Shown here: piece after piece, positions 1,223-20,607 of the stretch
Layout of the letters: every line of letters starts with the position of its first letter
Position numbering within the stretch: position 1 is the stretch's first letter
From: Bacteroidales bacterium
GTDB taxonomy: Bacteria; Bacteroidota; Bacteroidia; Bacteroidales; UBA12170
Reading direction: 5' to 3'
NCBI GenBank assembly: GCA_021158405.1
Contig: JAGGUP010000108.1
Coordinates: 1 to 46,172 of the forward strand
Length of the DNA: 46,172 nucleotides
Translations under genes and position numbers: made by a program
The notes under the pieces: model-generated
What the model was told of the DNA's origin: nothing
Seen by the model: the letters and a program-made list of their open reading frames with translations, nothing else
Database searches by the model: none

Positions 1223-2107
1223 ATGAAAAAAAATGTAGCATTAGTGTTATCAGGTGGTGGAGCAAGAGGAATTGCACACATTGGTGTAATTGAAGAATTA
1301 GAAAAACAAGGATTTGAAATTAAATCTATTTCAGGCACTTCTATGGGAGCCCTGGTTGGCGGTATTTATGCTACAGGAAAGATGCAAGAGTATAAAAACT
1401 GGATGTACACATTAAACAAATTAGAAGTCTTTAATCTTGTTGATTTTAATATTGGCATTCAAGGACTTATTAAAGGAGACAGGGTATTTAAGAAAATGAA
1501 AGAATTTATTCCTGATAGGAATATTGAAGACTTAGAAATACCTTATGCTGCCGTAGCCGCTGATATTATTAACAACAAAGAAGTAGTTTTTACAGAGGGA
1601 AGTGTTTATAATGCCGTTCGAGCATCCGTTGCAATTCCTACAGTATTTACGCCTGTTAAAACAGATGAAGGATTATTGGTAGATGGTGGAGTTGTAAACA
1701 ATATCCCCGTTAACCGCGTAAAAAGAACTCCTGATGATATTTTAGTTGTTGTAAATGTTAGTGCACATATTCCTGTTTATAAACCTATAATATCAGAAAA
1801 AGAACGCGACAGAAAGGAGTCGGTATACCAAAAGAAAGTAAGTGAATTTAAAAACCACTTGCAAAAAATCAACCCCTTAAATAATGATAAAAAAATTGGT
1901 TATTTCGACCTAATTAATAAAACCATTAACCTAATGATTTATCATAATGCATATGTATCGTTTGAACAACAACCTCCAGATATAATGATTGAGGTATCTC
2001 ATAATTCTTGTGGCACTATGGATTTTTACAAAGCCGAAGAAATGGTAGAAATAGGAAGATATGCCGCCATTAGAAGCCTTGACAAGTATAATAAGAAATT
2101 GGTATAA
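1223..2107 (+). CDS. Patatin-like phospholipase, cytoplasmic (RssA/YlbK type)
   Basis: This 294-residue patatin-fold serine hydrolase, expected to cleave acyl chains from phospholipids or other acyl lipids, shows every family landmark. The oxyanion loop GGGARG is at residues 11-16, the nucleophile elbow GTSMG at 38-42 (Ser40), and the catalytic Asp154 sits in DGG 154-156. There is no signal peptide, so it should act in the cytoplasm or on the inner face of the membrane. It is the first gene of a probable operon with a second, exported patatin (47 bases later) and a Crp/Fnr regulator. The two patatins are close paralogues from a tandem duplication. The natural substrate cannot be read from sequence. 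Confidence 0.9.
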   Translation: MKKNVALVLSGGGARGIAHIGVIEELEKQGFEIKSISGTSMGALVGGIYATGKMQEYKNWMYTLNKLEVFNLVDFNIGIQGLIKGDRVFKKMKEFIPDRNIEDLEIPYAAVAADIINNKEVVFTEGSVYNAVRASVAIPTVFTPVKTDEGLLVDGGVVNNIPVNRVKRTPDDILVVVNVSAHIPVYKPIISEKERDRKESVYQKKVSEFKNHLQKINPLNNDKKIGYFDLINKTINLMIYHNAYVSFEQQPPDIMIEVSHNSCGTMDFYKAEEMVEIGRYAAIRSLDKYNKKLV

Positions 2108-2154
2108 AGAACTGTAATTCTCAAAATTAAAAATCACCATTAATAAGTAGACGT

Positions 2155-3243
2155 ATGAAGTATAACATATTACTGATAAGCACACTGCTTCTCCTATTAG
2201 GGATGAAAGCATTACAGGCGCAAGAGGTACAGCAATCTCAAAAAAAAATTAACACTGTCGAAATTGTAGGGGACACAAACCTTAATTATTATGTTTATCC
2301 AAACTCAAGCTCTAAAGACACTTCCTTGCTACTTAATTTAGATAATGAAAACACAAAACCGAATAATACAAAGAAAAAAGTAGCATTAGTATTATCCGGT
2401 GGAGGGGCAAGAGGAATTGCACACATAGGAGTAATTGAAGAACTGGAAAAACAAGGCTACGAAATTGTTTCAATATCAGGAACTTCTATGGGAGCTCTTG
2501 TAGGTGCTGTTTATGCTCTTGGAAAAATGGAAGAGTTTAAAAACTGGATATACACTATGGATAAATTAGACACCTTCAAATTTATTGACTTTTCATTCAG
2601 TTCACAAGGATTAGTAAAAGGGGATAAAGTTTTAAAAAAGATGAAAGAATTTATTCCTGATAGAAATATTGAAGACTTAAAAATTAATTATTCAGCCACA
2701 GCTACAGATATTACAAATAAGAAAGAAGTGGTTTTTACAAAAGGAAGTATTTATGAGGCGGTAAGAGCATCTGTTGCGATACCTACTGTGTTTACCCCTG
2801 TAAAAATGGGAAACTCCCTGCTTGTAGATGGAGGCGTTATGAATCCTGTTCCTATTAATCATGTGAAAAGAACCAAAGGTGATATATTAATTGTTGTTCA
2901 TGTAAATGCTGAAATCCCTGTATTTAAGCCACCTATTACAATAGACGAAGAAAATAAAAGACAATCAAAATATCAAAAAAATATTGATACGTTTCAAAAT
3001 GAATTTAATTCTAAAACGAAAAACGAAAAATTAGGATATTTTAAACTTATTAATAAAACAGTAGGTTTACTCACCTATCAAATATCAAAAATGACGATAG
3101 AAAAATATCCGCCAGACATTTTAATAAATGTATCCAGAGAATCGTGTGATGTTTTTGATTTCTATAAAGCAGAAGAATTAGTTGAAATTGGTCAGCATGC
3201 AGCTATTAACAGCCTAAAAGAGTATAGCAATAAACTAGATTAG
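2155..3243 (+). CDS. Patatin-like phospholipase with signal peptide
   Basis: At 362 residues this is the previous gene plus an N-terminal extension. Residues 1-22 look like a signal peptide (hydrophobic run ISTLLLLLGMKAL, then QAQ), followed by a polar linker to about residue 74. The patatin domain follows with GGGARG at 82-87, Ser111 in GTSMG and Asp225 in DGG, so it should be active. It presumably works in the periplasm or at the outer membrane, whereas its paralogue lacks an export signal. It ends one base before the start of the regulator gene, implying co-transcription. It is not a two-domain PlpD-type protein, because no barrel domain follows the patatin domain. Confidence 0.9.
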   Translation: MKYNILLISTLLLLLGMKALQAQEVQQSQKKINTVEIVGDTNLNYYVYPNSSSKDTSLLLNLDNENTKPNNTKKKVALVLSGGGARGIAHIGVIEELEKQGYEIVSISGTSMGALVGAVYALGKMEEFKNWIYTMDKLDTFKFIDFSFSSQGLVKGDKVLKKMKEFIPDRNIEDLKINYSATATDITNKKEVVFTKGSIYEAVRASVAIPTVFTPVKMGNSLLVDGGVMNPVPINHVKRTKGDILIVVHVNAEIPVFKPPITIDEENKRQSKYQKNIDTFQNEFNSKTKNEKLGYFKLINKTVGLLTYQISKMTIEKYPPDILINVSRESCDVFDFYKAEELVEIGQHAAINSLKEYSNKLD

Positions 3244-3244
3244 A

Positions 3245-3961
3245 ATGGAAAAAGAAACCACAAATTATTCCTATTACTTTAATACTCTCAAGCAGTCTCC
3301 AATCTTCTCTGAAGTTGAGGATGATGTTTTACATAAAATCTTAAGAATGTTTCATAGCAAAAAATATCTTAAAGATAATTATCCGCTAACATCTGAGTCA
3401 ACCATGTATAATATTTATGTGATAATTTCTGGAAGAGTGGAAATATCAGTAATGAATTTTGACACGGATAGAGAATATATCATTGACATCCTTGGACCGG
3501 GAGATATCTATGATGTAATATGTTTACTTGACAAAAAAGAACATGATATTATTGCCACTGCATTGGATGACATGGAGTTATTAGTAGCTCCTATTAAAGA
3601 GGCAAGGGAATGGTTATATACACATCCTGATTTTAATAAAGCACTGTTGCCTTATCTGGGGAAACAACTACGACATTTTGAAGAATCTGCTTCTGATCTT
3701 GTACTATATGATACATGGACAAGATTAGTTAAACTAATTTTAAGAAATACTGACAATGATACAGGAAAGTTATCACTAATCAACAATCTTTCACATGAAC
3801 AGATTGCTAAAATGATTGGCAGCGCACGAAATGTTGTCAACCGCCATATTCAAGATTTAAAAAACAGTCAACTGTTATCGGTACAAAGGAAAAGCCTTGA
3901 AATAAATAATATTCATAAATTGATAGAAGAATTTAAAAGACGGAATCCTTTTCTTATATAA
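3245..3961 (+). CDS. Crp/Fnr-family transcriptional regulator
   Basis: This 238-residue protein has a cyclic-nucleotide-binding-like beta domain at about 20-135, a dimerisation helix, and a C-terminal winged helix with a recognition region around 183-205 (LSHEQIAKMIGSARNVVNRH), typical of Crp/Fnr HTH domains. Only one cysteine (C93) is visible, so it cannot carry the Fnr-type four-cysteine iron-sulfur cluster; the signal is more likely a small ligand or haem. It is the last gene of the patatin operon. A near-identical putative operator and promoter lies upstream of the next three transcription units (4038-4095, 6770-6827, 8438-8485), which makes this protein the natural candidate regulator. 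That link is inference. Confidence 0.9.
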   Translation: MEKETTNYSYYFNTLKQSPIFSEVEDDVLHKILRMFHSKKYLKDNYPLTSESTMYNIYVIISGRVEISVMNFDTDREYIIDILGPGDIYDVICLLDKKEHDIIATALDDMELLVAPIKEAREWLYTHPDFNKALLPYLGKQLRHFEESASDLVLYDTWTRLVKLILRNTDNDTGKLSLINNLSHEQIAKMIGSARNVVNRHIQDLKNSQLLSVQRKSLEINNIHKLIEEFKRRNPFLI

Positions 3962-4037: not shown

Positions 4038-4095
4038 TAAATTCTTGTTGTGCAACTTAGGTGGTAGTTGATGATATCAAGTTACTATATTTTTG
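4038..4095 (+). promoter_or_regulatory. Shared operator-promoter cassette, copy 1 (EcsC/glycosyltransferase/flippase unit)
   Basis: Bases 4038-4072 are identical over 35 bases to 6770-6804. The core 4048-4072 contains an inverted repeat, CAACT (4053-4057) and AGTTG (4066-4070) with 8 bases between, and a second small palindrome GTTG-TG-CAAC just upstream (4047-4056). The downstream arm contains the TTG that would serve as -33 element. It is followed after exactly 17 bases by the -7 box TATTTTTG (4088-4095). The operator centre falls about 38-41 bases before the expected transcription start, the position of a class II Crp activator site. Confidence 0.75.
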
Positions 4096-4113
4096 TATTA
4101 CAATAAATTAGAT

Positions 4114-4911
4114 ATGATTAGAAGCAATAAGTTAACGAAAGCAGATAAAGAAGAACTAAAAATAGCAAAAGCTTTATTAGAAAATCCCGGAATTACAGCT
4201 AAGATTACTAATCTTATTGGAAAACCAATTGAGAAGGGATTTGATGTGTTACCTTTTGGTTGGCGTAACAAAATAGGAAGTGTTACAACCAAAACAATGC
4301 TTAAAATTGCCGAAGGCACATTATTAACAATGAAAGATATTCCAAAGGAAAATACTTCTAATGTTTGGCACAAATTAGGCGTAGCAGCATCGGGTGGCTT
4401 TGGCGGATTTTTCGGAATTTCAGCTTTAGCAATTGAATTACCAATATCAACTTCAATTATGTTACGCTCGATTACAGATATAGCAAGGTCTCAAGGAGAA
4501 AAAATTAATACTACGGAATCAAAATTAGCCTGTTTAGAAGTTTTTGCTTTTGGTGGCAAGACTAAATCTGATGATGGTGTAGATACTGGGTATTTCTTTG
4601 TTCGTTCTGCATTAGCAAGGTCAATAGCAGAAACCAATGAATTTATTGCAACGAGAGGAATAGCCAAAGAAGGTTCGCCTGTTTTATTAAGATTTATAGC
4701 AAACATCGCTCAAAGATTTGGGGTTCAAATAGGAGAAAAAGCCGCCGCACAAGCAATGCCAATAATTGGAGCTGCTGGCGGAGCTTTAATTAATACAATG
4801 TTTATCGACCATTTTCAAGATATGGCAAAAGGACATTTTATAATAAGAAAACTGGAAAGAAAATATGATGCAGAATTTATTAAACAATCGTATAATGAAT
4901 TATTGAAATGA
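4114..4911 (+). CDS. EcsC-family protein
   Basis: This 265-residue protein resembles the EcsC family. It has a charged N-terminal helical part, then a glycine-rich hydrophobic stretch (GGFGGFFGISALAIELP, about residues 90-106), an ELPIST segment and a second glycine/alanine-rich hydrophobic stretch near residue 220, ending in a charged tail. The family is poorly understood; members are linked to membrane-associated functions. I start at the ATG at 4114 because the upstream in-frame TTG at 4093 lies inside the -7 box. It is the first gene of a unit with the glycosyltransferase 40 bases downstream and the flippase-like gene after it. Function unknown. Confidence 0.75.
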   Translation: MIRSNKLTKADKEELKIAKALLENPGITAKITNLIGKPIEKGFDVLPFGWRNKIGSVTTKTMLKIAEGTLLTMKDIPKENTSNVWHKLGVAASGGFGGFFGISALAIELPISTSIMLRSITDIARSQGEKINTTESKLACLEVFAFGGKTKSDDGVDTGYFFVRSALARSIAETNEFIATRGIAKEGSPVLLRFIANIAQRFGVQIGEKAAAQAMPIIGAAGGALINTMFIDHFQDMAKGHFIIRKLERKYDAEFIKQSYNELLK

Positions 4912-4951
4912 AATAAAACAATTTATAATTACATACTAAAATTTTAACACT

Positions 4952-5728
4952 ATGAAAAAGAAAGTAAGTATTGTTATTTGTACTTTCAATGAAGAAAAAA
5001 CCATTGAAAATGTAGTTAGAAAATGTAGCGAGTATAATCCAGAAAGTGAGATTATAGTTTTTGATGATAGTTCTAAAGACAAAACTGAAGAAATTTTAAA
5101 AAATCTTAATAAGGAAATCTCTTTTAATAATATCTGCTTATCCGAAAATAAGGGCAAAAGCAATGCTATGGTAGTGGGAGTTGAAAATGCCCAAAACGAA
5201 GTGATTTTATTTTTTGATGCAGATATTTCGGATATTAAAGAAGAGCATTTCAGGCAACTGTTAAATCCCATTATTGATGAAAATCCAGAAGCGGATATGA
5301 TACTTGGAATACCTTCCGAAACACTTATTGATTATAGAGTAAATCCCTTTAAAAGCCTTACGGGTGAGCGAGCATTACTAAAAAAGGATATTGAGCCAAT
5401 TCTTGAGAATATCCGAGATATACGGTTTGGGGTAGAAACCTATATAAATCTTTATTTTCAAGCACATGGAAAAAGGATCAAATATACGCTGTTAGATGGT
5501 TTAACACATCCAACTAAGTATGACAAGACTTCGCCAACCAAGGCAACGAAAGAGTTTATAAGCGAGGGCCAGGAAATAGCCGTTACACTATTAAAAAATT
5601 ATGACCTAATCACGAAAAGAATAAACAACTCACTTGATAAGCATAGTAAAAAAATTACGGTTTCAGTGAAAAAGCTTCAGAGCGAATTAAATGATAAAAT
5701 TCAGACTCTATTAAGAAACAATGGATAA
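4952..5728 (+). CDS. Family 2 glycosyltransferase (dolichyl-phosphate-sugar synthase type)
   Basis: The 258-residue GT2 protein opens with the nucleotide-binding beta strand VSIVICTFNEEKTIENV, has FDDSSKDKT near 38-45, and the metal-binding DAD motif at 89-91 in LFFDADISD. The C-terminal part (about 200-258) is helical and charged, with no obvious membrane segments, so it is a soluble or peripheral enzyme. Enzymes of this type move a sugar from a nucleotide donor to a lipid phosphate or a glycolipid. The gene overlaps the next one by 8 bases. Pairing with a flippase-like membrane protein suggests it builds a lipid-linked sugar that is then exported. The exact sugar and acceptor are unknown. 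Confidence 0.85.
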   Translation: MKKKVSIVICTFNEEKTIENVVRKCSEYNPESEIIVFDDSSKDKTEEILKNLNKEISFNNICLSENKGKSNAMVVGVENAQNEVILFFDADISDIKEEHFRQLLNPIIDENPEADMILGIPSETLIDYRVNPFKSLTGERALLKKDIEPILENIRDIRFGVETYINLYFQAHGKRIKYTLLDGLTHPTKYDKTSPTKATKEFISEGQEIAVTLLKNYDLITKRINNSLDKHSKKITVSVKKLQSELNDKIQTLLRNNG

Positions 5729-6689
5729 AAAAAGCACTTATCAATCCATATTATTTTTTTTAATAGGGCTTGGGCTCATTTGGCTTGTATTTAGAGGTAC
5801 TGATATAGAACAGCTTAAAAATGAACTGTACAGGATTAGTTGGTTATGGGTTGGCGTTTCTGTTGGATTAAATTTGTTAAGTCAGCTGGTTAGGGCATAT
5901 AGATGGAAAACATTGTTTGTCCCATTGGAATATTCACCGAAATTCTATAATTTGTTTTTATCAATGCTTATTCTTGCTTTTACTAACCAAATTATACCTC
6001 GTGGAGGAGAAATTGCACGATTGGGTGTTGTGAATAAATACGAGAAAATACCTTTGTCAACATTAGTTGGAATAGCACTGATTGAACGTTTAACTGACTT
6101 AATTATTCTGATTCTGATTTTTATAATTCTATTGATTTGGCAATTTCCATTGATTCAAAGAATTATTGATTTACCACAAGTAAATTTACTAGATGTTAGT
6201 CTTTATAATATTTTGATAATTTCGGGAATTACTATCATTAGTTTGGTGATTTTGTATTTTATAATCAGGAAATATAGAAATAAGATTAAGAAGATAAAAG
6301 AAGAATTACGCGAGGGTTTTACATCTATTTATCATATAAAAAACAAATTTCTTTACTTTACACAATCTATTCTTATTTATGTGCTTTGGTTTCTTATGCT
6401 TTATGTGCTCTTTCTGGCATATCCCCCAACACAGCATTTAGGCTTTACAGCAGCAGCATTCACTTTTGGATTAGCAACTTTAGCATTTCTGCTACCGGTT
6501 CAGGCAGGAATGGGTGCATGGCATTTTGTTGTAATACAATGTCTTTTATTATTTGGAGTTGAAAATGATGTGGGAAAAGTGTTCTCGTTAATGGCACATT
6601 CAGCTACTAATCATGTTTACCTTATTACAGGAATAATTGCTTTAGTCTTGTTGCCTATTGTAAATTATAAAAAGAGTAAATCCAGATAA
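5721..6689 (+). CDS. Flippase-like membrane protein (LPG synthase TM / UPF0104 family)
   Basis: The 322-residue protein has about seven or eight hydrophobic segments. Conserved family features include RAYRWKTLF after the second segment, NQIIPRGGEIARLGVV near residue 90-105, and the C-terminal PVQAGMGAWHF segment with following helices. It belongs to the family that includes the membrane domain of lysyl-phosphatidylglycerol synthase and AglD, associated with lipid flipping or lipid glycosylation. It lacks the cytoplasmic lysyl-transferase domain of MprF, so it is not MprF. The start overlaps the glycosyltransferase gene, indicating translational coupling. Confidence 0.85.
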   Translation: MDKKSTYQSILFFLIGLGLIWLVFRGTDIEQLKNELYRISWLWVGVSVGLNLLSQLVRAYRWKTLFVPLEYSPKFYNLFLSMLILAFTNQIIPRGGEIARLGVVNKYEKIPLSTLVGIALIERLTDLIILILIFIILLIWQFPLIQRIIDLPQVNLLDVSLYNILIISGITIISLVILYFIIRKYRNKIKKIKEELREGFTSIYHIKNKFLYFTQSILIYVLWFLMLYVLFLAYPPTQHLGFTAAAFTFGLATLAFLLPVQAGMGAWHFVVIQCLLLFGVENDVGKVFSLMAHSATNHVYLITGIIALVLLPIVNYKKSKSR

Positions 6690-6769
6690 GTATAATTGTA
6701 ATCTTGTCAAAACTATTTCATTATTTTCTCCACCCCATTTTAAGCAATATCAATAAAAAAAATTTGAAA

Positions 6770-6827
6770 TAAATTCTTGTTGTGCAACTTAGGTGGTAGT
6801 TGATAATTTAAACCTACCTTATCTTTG
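6770..6827 (+). promoter_or_regulatory. Shared operator-promoter cassette, copy 2 (radical SAM gene)
   Basis: Bases 6770-6804 repeat 4038-4072 exactly. The TTG of the downstream arm is at 6800-6802 and the -7 box TATCTTTG at 6820-6827, again with a 17-base spacer. Similarity with copy 3 continues past the -7 box into the start of the transcript, so the whole promoter seems duplicated. The leader to the ATG at 6870 is about 40 bases. Confidence 0.75.
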
Positions 6828-6869
6828 TACTATAATTTATTTTAATGAATCATTTATAAATTACTTAAA

Positions 6870-8309
6870 ATGAAAACAAAGGAAATTTTTTTTCAAAAAG
6901 CAGTTGAAACTATTATTTTCAACAAACATCTCAGACCTATTGCTACCAAGCAATTAGACAATTATGTGTTTAATAAATTCTCGAAAGATAGCGGTTTTGC
7001 AACTTATGATGAAAGGATGATAAGATATCAGTTTTATTCTGCTATACTAAACATTGCTGAAAAGAACTTAGAAAAAGGATATTATTCTAAAGCCGGAATG
7101 AAAAAGATGATTCATTCTCTAACAGGAAACAAATTTGTAATGAAATCAGATGATAAAATCGGAAACATACAAATTGAATATAAATTAAAATACGGAGAAT
7201 ATCCTCCAGGGTTTATTGTCCTATCTCCTTCACAGAGATGTAATTTGCAATGTACGGGCTGTTATGCAGGAAGCACCAACCAAACAGTATCGACGCTCCC
7301 ATATTCTGTTGTTGACAGGATAATAGGTGACGTGCATGATGTATTTGGCAGAAAGTTCGTGGTGATTAGCGGAGGTGAGCCTTTTATGTACAAAAGTGAC
7401 GATAAAACCTTATTAGATATCTTCGAAAAATATAACGATGTGTTCTTCTTGGTATATACTAACGGAACCTTAATAACACCTTCCATAGCTCAAAGGCTTT
7501 CGGAATTAGGAAATGTTACACCTGCAATATCTATAGAAGGTTATGAGCAGGAAACGGATGAACGCAGGGGTAAAGGTGTTTATAATAAAATAATGAAAGC
7601 TATGGAAAACCTGAAGAAGGCAGGTGTTCCATTTGGGATTTCGGTAACAGCAACAAGCAAAAACTATGAGCTTTTACTTAATGAGGAGTTTTACGATTAT
7701 TATTTTGAACAATTAGGCGCTTCATATATGTGGCAATTTCAATTAATGCCTATCGGACGTGGAAAAGAAACATTTGATTTGGTTGTATCTCCCGAAAAAA
7801 GAGTAGAGCTTTACAATGTCTGGAAAAAAGTATTAATTGAAAAAAAATATCCTATAGCTGATTTCTGGAACAGCGGAATAATAAGTAATGGATGTATTGC
7901 TTATGGCAGGTATAATGGGTATATATATATTGATTGGAACGGCAATATTACGCCTTGTGTTTTCGTGCCTTATTATGTTGATAATATATATAATTTATAC
8001 AAAGAAGATAAAAATCTAGGCGATGCAGTTCAATCCCAGTTTATGAAAAACGGACGTAAATGGCAACATGATCATGAAAAAACACGCAAAAATCATTTGA
8101 TGCCATGTTCGATAAGAGATCATTATAAAAATTTCAGGGAAAACATACTTACCGATGATACAAAACCGGAAGATAAACAAGCAGCCCAAGCATTAAAAGA
8201 TTCAATTTATTTTCAGACTATGGTTAAATACGATGAAGAACTAACGAAATTAACTAAAAATATAGAGGATCCCAAATATAGTGATTTGTTCCATGAAATG
8301 GAAACATAA
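6870..8309 (+). CDS. Radical SAM protein with SPASM/twitch-like C-terminal cysteines
   Basis: The 479-residue protein has an N-terminal helical extension of about 115 residues. The radical SAM core follows, with C124-C128-C131 in RCNLQCTGCYAG binding the 4Fe-4S cluster and the SAM-contacting GGEP at 168-171. A C-terminal segment holds GC342 and C363 (WNGNITPCVFVPY) plus C413, resembling an auxiliary-cluster domain of the SPASM/twitch type. Such enzymes modify peptides, proteins, sugars or, in some families, lipids. No precursor peptide gene is next to it. It is transcribed from copy 2 of the shared cassette and sits between the glycosyltransferase/flippase unit and amphipathic-helix proteins, so a lipid or envelope substrate is plausible but unproven. 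Confidence 0.85.
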   Translation: MKTKEIFFQKAVETIIFNKHLRPIATKQLDNYVFNKFSKDSGFATYDERMIRYQFYSAILNIAEKNLEKGYYSKAGMKKMIHSLTGNKFVMKSDDKIGNIQIEYKLKYGEYPPGFIVLSPSQRCNLQCTGCYAGSTNQTVSTLPYSVVDRIIGDVHDVFGRKFVVISGGEPFMYKSDDKTLLDIFEKYNDVFFLVYTNGTLITPSIAQRLSELGNVTPAISIEGYEQETDERRGKGVYNKIMKAMENLKKAGVPFGISVTATSKNYELLLNEEFYDYYFEQLGASYMWQFQLMPIGRGKETFDLVVSPEKRVELYNVWKKVLIEKKYPIADFWNSGIISNGCIAYGRYNGYIYIDWNGNITPCVFVPYYVDNIYNLYKEDKNLGDAVQSQFMKNGRKWQHDHEKTRKNHLMPCSIRDHYKNFRENILTDDTKPEDKQAAQALKDSIYFQTMVKYDEELTKLTKNIEDPKYSDLFHEMET

Positions 8310-8389
8310 TTATTAATATTTACCCCTTGTGCATTTAGCCTGAATAATTAAAACATGAATGAAAAGAAAATATTTACAATTGACTATCG

Positions 8390-8406
8390 CTGCGGCAAAA
8401 CCGCAG
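8390..8406 (+). terminator. Possible terminator hairpin after radical SAM gene
   Basis: CTGCGG (8390-8395) and CCGCAG (8401-8406) form a perfect six-pair GC stem with a five-base CAAAA loop. It is followed by TGAGTTTTGGTTTTC, T-rich but with no continuous run. It lies 80 bases after the stop and just before the next promoter, so it probably separates the two units. A weak intrinsic terminator or a transcript-end stabiliser. Confidence 0.45.
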
Positions 8407-8437
8407 TGAGTTTTGGTTTTCATTAAAAATATATTCA

Positions 8438-8485
8438 TTGTGCAACTTAGGTGGCAGTTGATGATATAAACCTATCCTATCTTTG
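8438..8485 (+). promoter_or_regulatory. Shared operator-promoter cassette, copy 3 (coiled-coil protein gene)
   Basis: The 25-base core 8438-8462 differs from copies 1 and 2 at one base only (C at 8455). The inverted repeat CAACT/AGTTG is intact, TTG is at 8458-8460, the spacer is 17 bases and the -7 box TATCTTTG is at 8478-8485. Similarity with copy 2 extends through the -7 box to about 8507. Confidence 0.75.
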
Positions 8486-8516
8486 CATTATAATTTATTC
8501 TAATAAAGAAAATAAA

Positions 8517-9215
8517 ATGACGACAAAAGAAAAAATCAAAAAAGGGATTGTAAAAATAGCTACCGAAAGTCAAGACATTAAAAACGACATCATCACATTT
8601 GTCGGAGATGAATTTGAAAAATCCATTGCGCTTAAAAACCAGACAGCTGAAACAATTAAAGAAATTACAAAAGACACTCTTGATGGCGTTTATGAAGGTC
8701 TAAATGAAGCGAAAGATAAGGGGCAACAATATACTGATAGACTAACAGAAAAGGGTGTTGAAATAGAAGATGTGATGAAAAAATCATCTGAGGCTATGGT
8801 TAATGTTGCTAAACAGAAAGGCGAAAATGCTTTAGCAGTAAGTAAACAATCTGCTGAAAAAGCAAAAGAGCTTTTTAATGATGCGTCAAACAGAGCCAAG
8901 CACTCAATAGATAATATTGAAGACAAAGCAAAAGAGCAAATGGAAGCTACACTTAAAAATCTTAATGAAACCAAGAAAGAAACAAAAAACAAACTCGATG
9001 CAATAGGTGATGCACTAAAAGATTATACTACCGAAAAAAAAGATGAAACTTCAGAAGCTATTTCAAATGCTTTGCATAAAACCGCTGACAAAAGTAAAGA
9101 GGCTGCAACAGACTTAATGAACTTAGCAAAAAGCCATTCAAAAAAATTGACAAATCATTCACTTAGTAAGATATCAGACTGGTTAAAAAATCTTTCAAAT
9201 AAAGTAAATTCATAA
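8517..9215 (+). CDS. Amphipathic coiled-coil protein (apolipoprotein/LEA-like), soluble
   Basis: This 232-residue protein has no signal peptide or membrane segment. It is almost wholly charged helix, rich in Lys, Glu, Ala and Thr, with loose 11-residue-like periodicity such as AKDKGQQYTDR and NRAKHSIDNIEDKAKEQ. That composition resembles apolipoprotein A/E-type or LEA-type repeats that lie on lipid surfaces or protect membranes. I start at the ATG at 8517: an earlier in-frame GTG at 8451 lies inside the operator, upstream of the -7 box. It is followed 30 bases later by a related lipoprotein-like gene, probably in one transcript. Specific function unknown. Confidence 0.7.
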   Translation: MTTKEKIKKGIVKIATESQDIKNDIITFVGDEFEKSIALKNQTAETIKEITKDTLDGVYEGLNEAKDKGQQYTDRLTEKGVEIEDVMKKSSEAMVNVAKQKGENALAVSKQSAEKAKELFNDASNRAKHSIDNIEDKAKEQMEATLKNLNETKKETKNKLDAIGDALKDYTTEKKDETSEAISNALHKTADKSKEAATDLMNLAKSHSKKLTNHSLSKISDWLKNLSNKVNS

Positions 9216-9245: not shown

Positions 9246-10052
9246 ATGAAATTAAAAACAGTAAAAAAAATATCAACTTATTTGATATTATCTACGGTAG
9301 CATTCACTTTTACAATGTGTCAAAATACTGGAGAAGGTGCAAAAAAAGACTTAAATAATTTAAAAAATAAAACTGAAAAAGAAGCAAAAAGCATTGAAAC
9401 TAAAACTACTGATTTAGCTAAGTCAGCGAGTCAAGAAGCAAAAACAAATTATGCTTTGACCAATGCAAGAGTGGCTCTATTAAGATCCCAAATTGCACTT
9501 GAAATTGACAAGTCCAAACAAAATACAGAAGCAGAATTAGACAATGCCATTAAGTATCTTTCAGAAGCCAAATCAACAGCTGATGAGAAAACAAAAGCAG
9601 AAATTGATTTGCTGGAAACCAAAGTAAATACAGCTAAAAATAGTGTTGTACAGAAAAAGGACGATGCTTTAGATAATGTATCTACTGCTGTTGATGAGGC
9701 AAAGATTATGTCTAAAAAATACAATGATGAGTTTCAGGCAATAAAAGAAAAAAACATTACTACAGTCAATAGGAAATATGCTGAACTTAGAGCAGAAGAA
9801 GCCCTTTTGAAGGCAAAAATAGCCGCTCAATCAGAAGAAACATTTGCTCAGGCAGAAGCTTATCTTGAAGAAGCAAATGAATGGTATATCCAGAGTAAAA
9901 AAGATGTTACTACCAAGATAAATCCCTACGTGGATAAACTTCAGAAAGATATTGAAGATGCTCAAACTTATCTAAATAAAAAAGATAAAGAAGCACGTAA
10001 TAAAATTTCAGATATTCTACAAAAAGCTAAAGAATTTGTTAACGAAGATTAG
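9246..10052 (+). CDS. Coiled-coil protein with lipoprotein-type signal
   Basis: The 268-residue protein starts MKLKTVKKISTY, then a hydrophobic run ending in FTMC at residues 22-25. C25 would be the lipidated cysteine, although TMC is not a textbook lipobox. The rest is charged helix with repeated Ala-Glu-Lys patterns, for example KNKTEKEAKSIETKTTDLAK and the two similar segments YALTNARVALLRSQIA and RKYAELRAEEALLKAKIA. It may be an envelope-anchored counterpart of the soluble coiled-coil protein 30 bases upstream. A rho-independent terminator follows at 10073, so it likely ends the unit driven by the third shared cassette. Function unknown. Confidence 0.7.
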   Translation: MKLKTVKKISTYLILSTVAFTFTMCQNTGEGAKKDLNNLKNKTEKEAKSIETKTTDLAKSASQEAKTNYALTNARVALLRSQIALEIDKSKQNTEAELDNAIKYLSEAKSTADEKTKAEIDLLETKVNTAKNSVVQKKDDALDNVSTAVDEAKIMSKKYNDEFQAIKEKNITTVNRKYAELRAEEALLKAKIAAQSEETFAQAEAYLEEANEWYIQSKKDVTTKINPYVDKLQKDIEDAQTYLNKKDKEARNKISDILQKAKEFVNED

Positions 10053-10140: not shown

Positions 10141-10455
10141 ATGAAAGATTTATTAAAAAAAAGTATTCTTACGGGAATAGGAATTGGTTTAATGACCAAA
10201 GACAAAGTTAAAGAATTTGCAAAAAAAACTGCCGATGAAGCAAAAATGACAGAGGAAGAAGCTCGTAAATTTGCAGACGAAGTGTTAAAACAATCAGAAG
10301 ATTCAAAACAAAAAATTGAAGAAATGATTGACAAACAGGTAAAAAAGAGTATTGACAAATTAGGATTGGCAAACAAAGAAGATCTGGAAAAAATTGAAAA
10401 AAAATTGAGCAAGTTGCAAAGTACCCTTAATAAAAAAGCAAATTTTAAAGAATGA
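10141..10455 (+). CDS. Phasin-like small coiled-coil protein
   Basis: The 104-residue protein has a short hydrophobic/glycine N-terminal part ([21 protein letters not shown]). [21 protein letters not shown] segment and a C-terminal coiled coil ([17 protein letters not shown]) follow. This layout matches the small phasin or PHA-granule-associated family often found directly before AarF/UbiB kinase genes. Its stop overlaps the start of the UbiB gene (ATGA at 10452), so the two are translationally coupled and probably work together. Whether it binds a lipid or polyester granule is not shown; no PHA synthase is in the window. Confidence 0.7.
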
Positions 10456-12143
10456 TTCGTAAAATCGGAATGGTTGGTAAGGCTTATCGCCATGCCAACC
10501 GTTATCTGGAAATTATCAAAGTCCTTACAAAGTATGGGTTTGAGGATGTTGTTTCTAAATCCCATTTGGAAGGTGTTATTGATTTTGGACGAAAAATTGT
10601 TTTCAGCAAAACAGATTTAACTATCGCATCTCTTTCGCGTTGGGAGCGTATGCGGTTGGTTTTAGAAGAACTCGGTCCTGCGTTTATCAAATTAGGTCAG
10701 ATAATGAGTACCAGACCGGATTTGATTCCTCTTGAATTAATAGCTGAATTTAAAAAGTTACAGGATGTCGTCCCTCCATTTTCAGGAGCTAAAGCGGTAT
10801 CGCTAATTGAACAAGAGTTGGGGAAGCCTATTTCGGAAATGTTTGATAATTTTTCCTCTACACCTGTTGCTGCTGCATCCATAGCCCAAGTTCATAAAGC
10901 AATTCTTATTGAAGGAGAAGAGGTTGCGATTAAAGTTCAACGCCCGGGAATTGACCAGATTATCGATACTGATTTGGAGATTATGTTTCATCTCGCTACT
11001 ATGATGGAGAAGCATGTTGAAGGTATGAAATCTTTCAATATCATTAAAATTGTAGAAGAGTTTGATATATCTATTCACAAAGAATTAAACTTTTCTATTG
11101 AAGCTTCCAATCTGGAACGATTTGGCAATAATTTTCAGCAAGACCAAGATATTTATGTACCCAAACTCTACAGGAATTATAGCACAAAAAAGGTGCTAAC
11201 AATGGAATTTATTGATGGAATAAAAATTTCAGACATTGAAAGTCTTAAGGCAAATTCCCTTGACCGGAAAATTATTGCAAAAAGAGGGGGAGACTTAATA
11301 TTAAAACAAGTATTTGAATTTGGTTTTTTCCATGCCGATCCTCACCCGGGGAATGTTTTTGTATTGCCTGAAAACGTAATTTGTTTCCTTGATTTTGGGA
11401 TGATGGGAACATTAACTCGGACAACAAGGGAATTAATTACATCCATGGCAGCTGGGGCAATTAATAATGATATTGACCGAATTATTAGGAGCTTACTCAG
11501 ACTGTGTGAAACAAGCGGTGAAGTAAAAAAACAGAAACTGGAGTTACATATAACTGAACTTATCGACAGATATTTTCAAAAATCGTTGGAACAAATGGAT
11601 ATGTCCGACCTTATCAACGATGTAATTAAATTTTTTCCTGAAAACAACTTAATAATACCTTCTGACCTGTTTTTGTTAGGGCGATCTTTGCTCCTTTTGC
11701 AAGGAAATGGAGAAATGCTTGATCCCGATTATAATGTAGCAAAGCACGTAGAACCCTATATAAAGAAGATGATTCGGGAGCGTCTTCACATTCGTAAAAT
11801 CGCAAAAGACTTTTTCATTTCCTCTGAAGAATTGATACAACTGACTAAAGAACTACCTTTTGAGATTCGAGAGATAATAGAAAAAATTAAAACCGGTAAA
11901 ATAAAAGTGGATATTGAGCATAAGGGACTTGATCCAATGCTCCGCACTCACGAGCAAATAAGTAATCGAATAACTTTTGCTATTGTTTTAGCCTCCATAA
12001 CAATTGGTTCCTCATTAATTGTGCATTCTAAAATTCCTCCATTGTGGCATGATATTCCTGTTATTGGCCTTATTGGATTCCTTGCTGCAACCTTTCTGGG
12101 ATTTTGGCTTCTTATTTCTATTTTTCGTCATGGAAAGATGTAA
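10452..12143 (+). CDS. UbiB/ABC1/AarF-family atypical kinase
   Basis: The 563-residue protein has all UbiB-family motifs. KLGQ is at 80-83 (the inhibitory KxGQ helix), the alanine-rich nucleotide loop AAASIAQVH at 140-148, the catalytic-fold lysine K161 in [17 protein letters not shown] at 294-301 and DFG at 314-316. Two hydrophobic segments close the protein (about 520-560), anchoring it in the membrane. The family has ATPase or kinase-like activity linked to quinone and other lipid homeostasis. No ubiquinone genes are nearby, and the neighbours point to general membrane-lipid work. It overlaps the phasin-like gene by 4 bases. Confidence 0.9.
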
Positions 12144-13106: not shown

Positions 13107-14918
13107 TTATTCCAACATTATACTTAAAGCTACCACGCCAGGTCCAGTATGAACTGCCAAAGCAGGTGTTACAGGAGAAACAAACTCAGGATCTTTCCCT
13201 ATTAGCTTTTTCATTTCATCAATATAAACTTGCGCTGTCTCTGCATTATCAGCATGCGAAATAGCATAAGCCCATATTTTATGATTCTTAACTAATTTAC
13301 GCATCTCCTTTTGAACCATTGCAATACTTCCTTTTTCTGTTACCGGTTTTCCAATTAAATCAATGGTTCCTTCTTCATTAACAACCAATAACGGTTTTAG
13401 TCCCATTAATTTTCCTAAAATACCTTTAACAGGGCTAACACGACCACTTTTCATCAAGTATTTAATGGTTTTTGTACTGACCAGCATTTTGGCATTTTTT
13501 GTCCACCCCTCCATACTATGCTCAATATCTTTAAGGGATGCTCCTGCTTCAAGGGCTCGAGCCGCTCTTAAAACAATAAGTCCTAAACCGCTAGCCGTTT
13601 TATTTGAGCTCAGCACTTTAATATCTTTCTTTTGCTGATTTGCTACTGTAGTTCCTGCTTTATTTGAATTTGACCATACGCCACTTAAGTTCCTACTTAA
13701 ATGAATAGAGAGTATTGAGTCGTAAAGAGAACTCATATACTCGTATTTATTCAAAAAGTCGTGATAGCTAGGTTGCGAAGTATTTGGATAAATTTCAGAA
13801 GTATCTAGTTGTTTGTAGAATTCGTAAGGAGAAAGCGTTAATCCATCCAGAAAGAATTTCTCTCCAAAATGTACTTTTACCGGAACAACTTGAATTTGAT
13901 ATTGATCCACTATATGCTGAGGTAAATCACAAGTAGAATCTGTAATTAGTCCTGTACTTAGTTTCTTTGCAGAAACCAAATCATTTTGCATAACCATATC
14001 ATCTACTTTTTGATAGCTGATATGTCCGTAACCTGAAATTTGCTGAAATACCTTTGCAGGCGTATCGGTATGAATATGCAAACGAATTTTTTTTGAAGAT
14101 CCTGCAATAACTAGTGAATCGCCAAGAAAATCAATTTTTGATCGGATAATTTCTTTTAACTCGGGCCGACTTTTATCCAAGATTAAAAGGGCTTCGGTAC
14201 AGTAGCGAAAATTTACAACTTCATGCGATATATTATCGTTTAGATTCTCAACTTTTACCACATTCCTATTTTCCAAAATGCTTCTGATATCGCCATGTTT
14301 AAAAAAGCTAATCATTCCCTCAAGGAAATGAACAAATGCTTTTCCGCCCGCATCAACCACCTTTTTCTTTCTTAGTATTTCCAATTTTTCGGGTGTAGCT
14401 GCTAAACTTTTTTGTGCATCTTTTAAAGAAGCACTAATCAATTCATTAAAATCGTCAAATTTACCGTGTAACTTATCGATGGCCTCTGCCCATTCTCGCA
14501 TTACAGTAATCATAGTGCCCTCAACAGGATTACTAATCGATTCATAAGAAAATCGTACGGCCTGTTTCAATGCATTCGAAAACTTTTCTACTGAAATATC
14601 TTCGATATCCTGAATACAGCTACTAAAGCCATATAAAAATTGAGCAAAGATAATCCCGGAATTTCCTCGAGCACCCATTAATGCCGCATCAGCCAGTGCT
14701 TCAGCGGTATCTTTTAGGCTACCTGTTGGAATATGTGTATCGACAATAGCTCGCATTGTTGAAGCCATATTGGTTCCCGTATCTCCATCCTGTACAGGAA
14801 AAACATTAATCTTATTAATCGCATTTTGATGCTCAAAAACTTGCTGAGCACCCGCTAAAAAACTAAAATAAAAACGCTTCCCGTTTAATACTTTTGTGTT
14901 AATCGTTATCAGTTCCAA
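13107..14918 (-). CDS. DAK2 (FakA-like) - DegV (FakB-like) fusion, putative fatty acid kinase
   Basis: About 603 residues. The N-terminal half is a FakA/YloV-type kinase: a DhaL domain with FPVQDGDTGTN (ends near 50) binding Mg-ATP, ARGNSG (83-88), and the FakA C-terminal HIHTDTPAKV segment near 281. From about residue 323 a complete DegV domain follows (LITDSTCDLP, then LSRNLSG and GRVSPVKG), which in FakB binds the fatty acid. In FakAB these are separate subunits; here both are one chain, so it may phosphorylate exogenous fatty acids on its own. I place the start at TTG 14918, 9 bases after GGAGGG. The in-frame TTG at 14948 is inside the -7 box, and the ATG at 14935 is out of frame. Confidence 0.85.
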   Translation of the reverse strand: MELITINTKVLNGKRFYFSFLAGAQQVFEHQNAINKINVFPVQDGDTGTNMASTMRAIVDTHIPTGSLKDTAEALADAALMGARGNSGIIFAQFLYGFSSCIQDIEDISVEKFSNALKQAVRFSYESISNPVEGTMITVMREWAEAIDKLHGKFDDFNELISASLKDAQKSLAATPEKLEILRKKKVVDAGGKAFVHFLEGMISFFKHGDIRSILENRNVVKVENLNDNISHEVVNFRYCTEALLILDKSRPELKEIIRSKIDFLGDSLVIAGSSKKIRLHIHTDTPAKVFQQISGYGHISYQKVDDMVMQNDLVSAKKLSTGLITDSTCDLPQHIVDQYQIQVVPVKVHFGEKFFLDGLTLSPYEFYKQLDTSEIYPNTSQPSYHDFLNKYEYMSSLYDSILSIHLSRNLSGVWSNSNKAGTTVANQQKKDIKVLSSNKTASGLGLIVLRAARALEAGASLKDIEHSMEGWTKNAKMLVSTKTIKYLMKSGRVSPVKGILGKLMGLKPLLVVNEEGTIDLIGKPVTEKGSIAMVQKEMRKLVKNHKIWAYAISHADNAETAQVYIDEMKKLIGKDPEFVSPVTPALAVHTGPGVVALSIMLE

Positions 14919-14945
14919 AGTATATTTCCCTCCATTTAATGTCTG

Positions 14946-14953
14946 CAAATATA
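14946..14953 (-). promoter_or_regulatory. -7 box of the FakA-FakB fusion gene
   Basis: On the minus strand this reads TATATTTG, matching the Bacteroidota TAnnTTTG box. It leaves a leader of about 20 bases containing GGAGGG before the TTG start proposed at 14918. No clear -33 TTG was found at the usual spacing. Confidence 0.5.
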
Positions 14954-18729: not shown

Positions 18730-20607
18730 TTATTCTACACCTAATTCAAATTGAAATTTTTTCAAATCTTCGACAATATTCGATTTGACATGGATAAAGC
18801 GATTTATTCCTGCCTCTTCAATCTCTTCAATAAAAGCTTTAGGATAACCGGCAATAACTAAGAGAGCATTGTATTGCAATTTATCAAAAACAGCCTCCGC
18901 ATAGGCGGGATATTCCTGATTGCTCGAGCAAATTACAATTATATCTGCCCTTGAATCTATAGCCGCTTGAATCCCCTCATTTACATTTTCAAATCCAACA
19001 TTATCTTCTACTTCAAAACCAGCACAAGCAAAATAATTGCAAGCAAATTGAGCCCGAGCTTGTCGCATACTTTTATTTCCAAGTGGAAGCATAAACACTT
19101 TAGGCCGCTGATTTTTTTGAGCAAATTGATCTGTTTTCTGTCGAATTTGTTCAATTTTTTGACTCAATCTGGATTGCTTTAAAGTCTTTATTTCAGCAGT
19201 AGCAGCAGTTAAATCCAAAGCCTCAAAAACATCAGGATTCAACATATCATCAATACTTTCCTTAAAATTTGGATACTGATTACTGCCCAACATGATTTCG
19301 CGCCGAGTAGCTAAAGCCTCTCTGCTTTTTAATTCTTCAGCTTCAATTTCTACTTGCACAAGTCCATTTCGAAGGGCTGATATATAGCCTCCTAACTCAT
19401 CCACATGTAAAAATAAATTCCATGCTTCCTGAACCAGAGAATTGGTTAAACTTTCAATATAATAAGAGCCTGCAGCCGGATCGACAACTTTATCTAAAAA
19501 GCTTTCTTCCTTGAGAAGCAGCTGTTGATTTCGAGCTATTCTTTCAGAAAATTCGCTTGGTAATTGATAAGACATATCAAAAGCCGTAAGACTCAAACTA
19601 TCTGTTCCACCTAAGACGGCAGACATACCTTCTGTTGTTGTTCTTAAAATATTCACATGAGCATCGTAAATACTCTTGTTCCATCCCGAAGATACCGAAT
19701 GAATATGCATTTGGGAAGAGTCTTCATTTTCCAGACCAAAAGCGGATAATGCTTTAACCCATAAATAGCGGGCGGCACGAAGTTTGGCAATTTCCATAAA
19801 ATAATTAGTGCCAACCCCAAAATTAAACTTAATCCGTTTTGCAATTTTATCTGTTGATAATCCTAACTCTGTAAGACGTGTAATATATTCTACTCCCTGA
19901 GCCAGTGAGAATGCAAGTTCCTGAACAACAGTGGCACCCGCATGTCGAAGGTTGTGACCATGAACAGCTAAAACTCTAAAATTCGGTAAGGTTTTCGCTG
20001 CATGAACCAACTGTTTTGAATGCGTGAAAGCATACTCTTCGGTCTTACATAATTTTCCACGAAAAGTATAAGCCATGAAGGGATCAAAATCAACTGAGCC
20101 TTTTATTTTATCCGGATTACGCTTGTATTTAAATACCAATTCTTCGTAGATGGCCAGTATTTTATGTGAAGCAGGGCCACACATAAAATTCACTTCCAGC
20201 TCTTCTGCATTAATATTTTCCATCAAAAGCTCAATATCTCTTACGGAAAGTTGAAACTGATCGGAAAATAAAAATCCAATTGAAGTCACTCCTTTGCTAG
20301 TCAATTCAATGGCCTTTTTATTTGCTTTGGAAATGGTATCGACTAGAATATCTTGACGGATGAGCCAATCATTATTTTTTTTCTTTCCTAATAGATCGGA
20401 AGTAAAATGCATATCAGGAAATAGTACATTTTTCAAATCTTCTTTTCGATAAAAAGGTTTAATTTGAATACCTTCACGTGTATTTGTAAATAAAGTCTTT
20501 TCGTAATCAGCACCTTTTATATCCTTTTTCAATTGAGTTTCCCAGACATCAGTAGAGGTGGGTGGAAACTCTTTAAAAAGCTGATTTTTTTTTATATTCT
20601 GCTTCAT
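18730..20607 (-). CDS. mutA: Methylmalonyl-CoA mutase, small subunit
   Basis: The 625-residue protein is homologous to the large subunit: it shares the barrel fold (FDPFMAYTFRGKLC, HNLRHAGATVVQELAF, ARNQQLLLKEESFLDKVVDP). Its C-terminal domain lacks DxHxxG, reading MLPLGNKSMRQARAQFACNY instead, so it cannot bind cobalamin and is the structural partner in the heterodimer. It is the first gene of the mutA-mutB operon. A textbook promoter with TTTG, a 19-base spacer and TACCTTTG lies at 20639-20669. No cobalamin riboswitch is visible in the short leader. Confidence 0.95.
   Translation of the reverse strand: MKQNIKKNQLFKEFPPTSTDVWETQLKKDIKGADYEKTLFTNTREGIQIKPFYRKEDLKNVLFPDMHFTSDLLGKKKNNDWLIRQDILVDTISKANKKAIELTSKGVTSIGFLFSDQFQLSVRDIELLMENINAEELEVNFMCGPASHKILAIYEELVFKYKRNPDKIKGSVDFDPFMAYTFRGKLCKTEEYAFTHSKQLVHAAKTLPNFRVLAVHGHNLRHAGATVVQELAFSLAQGVEYITRLTELGLSTDKIAKRIKFNFGVGTNYFMEIAKLRAARYLWVKALSAFGLENEDSSQMHIHSVSSGWNKSIYDAHVNILRTTTEGMSAVLGGTDSLSLTAFDMSYQLPSEFSERIARNQQLLLKEESFLDKVVDPAAGSYYIESLTNSLVQEAWNLFLHVDELGGYISALRNGLVQVEIEAEELKSREALATRREIMLGSNQYPNFKESIDDMLNPDVFEALDLTAATAEIKTLKQSRLSQKIEQIRQKTDQFAQKNQRPKVFMLPLGNKSMRQARAQFACNYFACAGFEVEDNVGFENVNEGIQAAIDSRADIIVICSSNQEYPAYAEAVFDKLQYNALLVIAGYPKAFIEEIEEAGINRFIHVKSNIVEDLKKFQFELGVE

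Follow-up and report, generated by a model that had tools for sequence, protein, structure and literature searches.

Three near-identical copies of a 25-bp sequence precede three consecutive gene units in the DNA analysed here (the window, 46,172 nucleotides of the Bacteroidales contig JAGGUP010000108.1), and they most likely mark a small dedicated regulon. The explanation that we consider probable as a whole is that the Crp/Fnr-family protein encoded immediately upstream of the first copy (3245-3961) binds this core and controls the three units in concert, with activation as the most likely mode. Its binding site would overlap three sigma-A-type promoters in their -33 region, at about -52 to -28, and activation would most likely occur from a near-class-II position, in response to a signal that probably differs from cAMP. 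The jointly controlled units would be EcsC-glycosyltransferase-flippase, the radical SAM protein, and the run of helix-rich protein, lipoprotein, phasin-like protein and UbiB kinase.

Repeated cores and promoter geometry

The core reads TTGTGCAACTTAGGTGG(T/C)AGTTGAT on the + strand of the window. Its copies, each a proposed operator, lie at 4048..4072, 6780..6804 and 8438..8462, the last with one mismatch, which agrees with the three near-identical cores reported in the first-pass annotation. Direct reading also bears out the reported identity of copies 1 and 2 over 35 bases (4038-4072 and 6770-6804). By chance, approximately 0.001 pairs of 25-mers with at most one mismatch would be expected in the window. 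All three cores are intergenic and upstream of same-strand units, and a scan of the whole genome (2.94 Mb) at up to three mismatches returned exactly these three.

Downstream of each core there is a TAnnTTTG box at the -7 position, TATTTTTG in promoter 1 (4088..4095, + strand) and TATCTTTG in promoters 2 and 3 (6820..6827 and 8478..8485, + strand). In every copy this box stands exactly 17 nt from the TTG of the core, as had been claimed. This spacer had been set against one of 19 at mutA, and a TTTG-N19-TACCTTTG promoter is indeed present upstream of the minus-strand gene starting at 20607, presumably the mutA of that annotation. Nonetheless, 17 instead of 19 is no anomaly, given that the -33/-7 spacer of Bacteroides promoters has been described as variable in length (PMC7366714).

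The mapping of start sites in F. psychrophilum places TAnnTTTG at -12 to -5 (PMC9723704). On this scale, with predicted start sites, the core reaches from about -52 to -28 and includes the -33 element; it carries a TTG at the -33 position, and the element, GTTG, is one base from the TTTG consensus. The inverted repeat CAACT-N8-AGTTG that had been described in the core is real but statistically weak, with perfect arms of at least 5 found in 3% of shuffled cores and in 14% of random AT-rich 25-mers. The class II Crp position proposed for it is only approximate: from the predicted start sites this perfect dyad is centred at about -38.5, 3 bp off -41.5, and only a weaker, interrupted dyad is centred at -41.5. 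The classical TGTGA-N6-TCACA and TTGAT-N4-ATCAA dyads are absent from the core, which has CAACT-N8-AGTTG instead. Because neither of its dyads is statistically strong and the conserved part extends past both, the half-sites are not fixed.

The direction of regulation we infer, with an activator moderately preferred over a repressor. In the opposite case, the Crp/Fnr protein would still bind the cores but would cover the -33 element and block RNA polymerase until the signal arrives. This would fit the fact that the TTG of the -33 position is part of the core, and that the homologous block of other families comes after a gene of the TetR family, which is usually repressive. Repression is nonetheless unlikely in our assessment, since Crp/Fnr proteins are mostly activators, the site is near the class II position, and a -33 element one base off TTTG suits an activator-dependent promoter.

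Gene units behind the cores

Unit 1 is composed of three genes on the + strand, for an EcsC-family protein (4114..4911; Pfam EcsC 3.7e-29), a family 2 glycosyltransferase (GT2; 4952..5728; Pfam Glycos_transf_2 5.9e-23) and a flippase-like membrane protein (LPG_synthase_TM, 5721..6689; Pfam 4.3e-36, TIGR00374 above cut-off). The ATG at 4114, which is the same in the second core-bearing genome (G060, below), was taken as the start of EcsC because the listed TTG start at 4093 falls in the -7 box. Unit 2 is a radical SAM/SPASM-type gene (6870..8309, + strand; Pfam Radical_SAM 2.2e-22), and after it a hairpin with a T-rich tail resembles an intrinsic terminator (8387..8409, + strand; fold -17 kcal/mol, z -3.1). 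Given that this hairpin separates unit 2 from core 3, the two units 2 and 3 are probably transcribed separately. Unit 3, also on the + strand, begins with a helix-rich (coiled-coil) protein with no Pfam match (8517..9215), for which the ATG at 8517 is the more likely start because the listed GTG start at 8451 falls in the core. It continues with a lipoprotein-like helix-rich protein (9246..10052; weak Apolipoprotein match, under the curated cut-off), a phasin-like protein (10141..10455; Pfam Phasin 8.7e-11) and an ABC1/UbiB-family atypical kinase (10452..12143; Pfam ABC1 5.8e-83). By their predicted families, the genes of the block point to cell-envelope or membrane-lipid remodelling. As a separate observation, a DAK2-DegV fusion with a FakA-like middle domain (fatty acid kinase type) is encoded next to the lipid block, on the minus strand (13107-14948).

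The regulator gene and its protein

A Crp/Fnr gene had been noted immediately upstream of core 1, and this was confirmed: the protein encoded at 3245..3961 (+ strand) contains HTH_Crp_2 (PF13545, 4.4e-11) and cNMP_binding (PF00027, 5.9e-08) domains, both of which exceed the curated cut-off. The gene starts 2 bp after the second of two patatin-like genes on the + strand (1223..2107, Pfam 2.8e-32; 2155..3243, Pfam 5.2e-33), and apparently forms one unit with that second gene. These tandem patatin-like genes (1223-3243) are approximately 60% identical to one another. A PWM scan found no core in front of either patatin-like gene, and none upstream of the patatin-regulator unit, for which reason autoregulation is not indicated.

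The recognition helix of the protein reads RNVVNRH, versus the usual RETISR in homologs, and the ligand motif GE-----RSA of the homologs has become DV-----EHDI, with DVICLLDKKEHDIIA where GEMALLDG--RSA is expected. The conserved GE ... RSA motif of the cAMP-responsive CRP subtype is therefore absent from the regulator. An FNR-type cluster is excluded because the protein has one cysteine in its 238 residues, versus the four that hold a [4Fe-4S] cluster. The altered recognition helix and the lost ligand motif agree with a non-canonical site and with a signal different from cAMP.

Distribution of the core and the regulator

The search of the rest of the genome and of its relatives, which the first-pass annotation had proposed, returned only the three cores of the window and four promoter-type cores in a Bacteroidales metagenome-assembled genome, G060. 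This was the one further genome with the exact 20-bp core in a scan of 84,980 species genomes, from which the window's own or near-own records were possibly excluded. It carries an ortholog of the regulator once, 96% identical and in the corresponding place. Its cores precede EcsC, an acyltransferase-short-chain dehydrogenase (SDR) unit that the window block does not have, and each of two helix-rich gene copies, and the 17-nt spacing to TAnnTTTG is kept in all four. A shared site thus stands at a fixed promoter distance of 17 nt upstream of several units, in seven copies from two genomes, and all seven have the TAnnTTTG box at -7 that typifies Bacteroidetes sigma-A promoters. The radical-SAM unit is missing in G060. 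The block is present there twice, in diverged form (approximately 93-97% protein identity), on L030 and L031 (contigs C131 and C190), and both block copies have a core in front of the helix-rich gene.

In 294 further genomes of the order, the regulator was without a match at E<=1e-15, as it was at E<=1e-8 in the 10 other genomes of the genus. At up to three mismatches the core was matched four times in the 294 order genomes. Three of these matches lie in coding frames and in none of the four does a TAnnTTTG box stand 17 nt away, so that they were taken as chance and a wide occurrence of the core was rejected. The core had no match in the viral contigs that were searched. When the query was relaxed to a 20-mer with additional free positions, single matches were scattered over 14 relatives in addition to the own genome, a yield close to that of the reversed control, and this query was discarded. 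A literature search found no description of the block or its site.

Crp/Fnr relatives at 23-32% identity occur in 58 other genomes of the phylum. The nearest of these distant regulators, in G432 and G535, were considered as representatives of the same system and rejected, since they are paired and lie beside unrelated genes; no similar palindrome and no shared 10-mer was found upstream of the adjoining genes. The pair in G432 (L095:8680-11192), which contains the nearest relatives of the regulator outside the window genome and G060, consists of two consecutive Crp-family genes, each followed by a gene for a paralogous secreted 178-aa protein.

From its adjacency to the core and the co-occurrence of both in two genomes only, we infer that the 3245-3961 protein is the likely binder. 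The core might instead serve a different regulator encoded elsewhere, with the neighbouring Crp/Fnr protein controlling something else, as would suit a dyad that is weak and unlike classical Crp/Fnr sites, a binding that is itself a prediction, and a Crp/Fnr gene whose own unit has no core in front. However, this gene directly adjoins the first core in both core-bearing genomes, gene and core are jointly missing from the 294 order genomes, and an altered recognition helix would go with an altered site, which makes a different regulator quite unlikely. What counts against binding by the Crp/Fnr protein, and against the main explanation in general, is that there are two genomes only and that they are closely related at this block. 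Core and regulator co-occur in one recent lineage, and the two related genomes are therefore not two independent tests.

Promoter flanks and possible exchange at the core

Between different promoters the core is 88-100% identical, whereas identity over the 35 bases of the -60..-26 stretch falls to 15-47%. The acyltransferase-SDR promoter of G060 was a possible failure point for the regulon hypothesis: its flanks in the -60..-26 stretch match the others at 26-41%, like unrelated DNA, and the core is kept there at 88-92% identity.

Other promoters share more than the core. Window copies 2 and 3 have downstream promoter sequence in common (0.75). The promoter in front of the G060 helix-rich gene resembles window copy 2 in its upstream half (0.81, shuffled 0.52) and window copy 3 in its downstream half (0.95); upstream, it shows no relation to window copy 3 (0.49, shuffled 0.50). 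This mosaic indicates that, when the radical SAM unit entered or left the block, the joint fell at the repeated promoter; it represents one event, from which a mechanism is not inferable.

Such sharing, together with the 35 bases common to copies 1 and 2, is what would be expected if the copies were mere recent duplications of promoter segments or recombination joints, with a core free of constraint by a regulator. We find this very unlikely, because the flanks of the G060 acyltransferase-SDR promoter and those of window copies 1 and 3 are at chance, yet their cores are still 88-96% identical, with the 17-nt spacing intact. Duplication is nonetheless compatible with the regulon, if duplicated promoters were retained by function.

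Homologous genes beside a different regulator gene

The dedicated regulon put forward in the first-pass annotation is well supported by the confinement of the core to genomes with the regulator, the fixed spacing in seven copies and the extra target in G060. Its members, however, are not otherwise unlinked, as had been thought: other families of the order carry homologs of radical SAM, SDR, GT2, lipoprotein-like, phasin-like and UbiB together in a single run. The radical SAM homologs there are 80-87% identical. In G094 and G259, radical SAM is followed by the GT2, lipoprotein-like, phasin-like and UbiB genes in one run, with SDR in G094, and G190 has a subset of it. A TetR gene is directly upstream of the radical SAM homolog in G094, G190 and G197, and TetR heads the run in those cases in which the sequence before radical SAM was recovered. 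The TetR genes at L081:7721-8299 and L084:13020-13598 stand where the window has Crp/Fnr. In the own genome, the best match to the TetR of the other families is 40% identical and away from the block genes. More distant radical SAM homologs have MMPL, LolA-like, acyltransferase and patatin genes as neighbours. Judged by gene content, the block genes recur as neighbours and share a presumed envelope-lipid theme, and which regulator accompanies them varies from lineage to lineage.

The repeated promoters may be places where units enter or leave the regulon. One could extend this to a plug-in joint, in which a unit between two copies would be gained or lost through exchange at the core, and envelope-lipid genes that stand under a single TetR in other families would have been redistributed into individually switched units of the local Crp/Fnr regulon; we put this forward tentatively, as possible rather than probable.

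To our knowledge, few Crp/Fnr sites are known in Bacteroidota. The Crp/Fnr subfamily described here, with its altered recognition helix, is accompanied by a predicted 25-bp site with seven natural variants and by named targets, and the site is directly testable. The same genes in TetR-headed and Crp/Fnr versions exemplify concretely the replacement of a regulator, and the mosaic G060 promoter hints at a route by which a unit joins or leaves a regulon. As read from sequence, the window likely holds a small regulon of its own kind of site, for which a Crp/Fnr protein is the likely dedicated regulator and the site is predicted, and it offers an informative contrast in evolution.

Comparison with known systems

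A close counterpart is the TetR-headed block of other families, which shares radical SAM (G094, G190, G197) as well as SDR, GT2, lipoprotein-like, phasin-like and UbiB genes (G094/G259). It differs in having TetR in place of Crp/Fnr, no core, and a single run versus the core-headed units of the window.

The nearest solved sequence relatives of the regulator are structures of M. tuberculosis CRP (PDB 3i54, 3d0s), to which residues 14-227 could be aligned (E 2.6e-18). The ligand-contact and recognition-helix residues of the regulator differ from those of this protein, and the window core is without an E. coli-like TGTGA site. As in the local regulons of CRP, FNR, NtcA and FtrB, a two-domain regulator with a cNMP-like sensor and a Crp helix-turn-helix is accompanied by a site of approximately 25 bp over the -33/-35 region upstream of several units. 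Unlike those types, the window site is without TGTGA/TTGAT half-sites, RE..SR in the helix has become RN..NRH, the cAMP phosphate-binding motif is replaced, and the four-Cys cluster of FNR is absent. The promoters themselves are like the Bacteroidetes sigma-A promoter (TTTG / TAnnTTTG) in having a TAnnTTTG -7 box and a TTG in the -33 region, but their -33 element sits inside the conserved 25-bp core.
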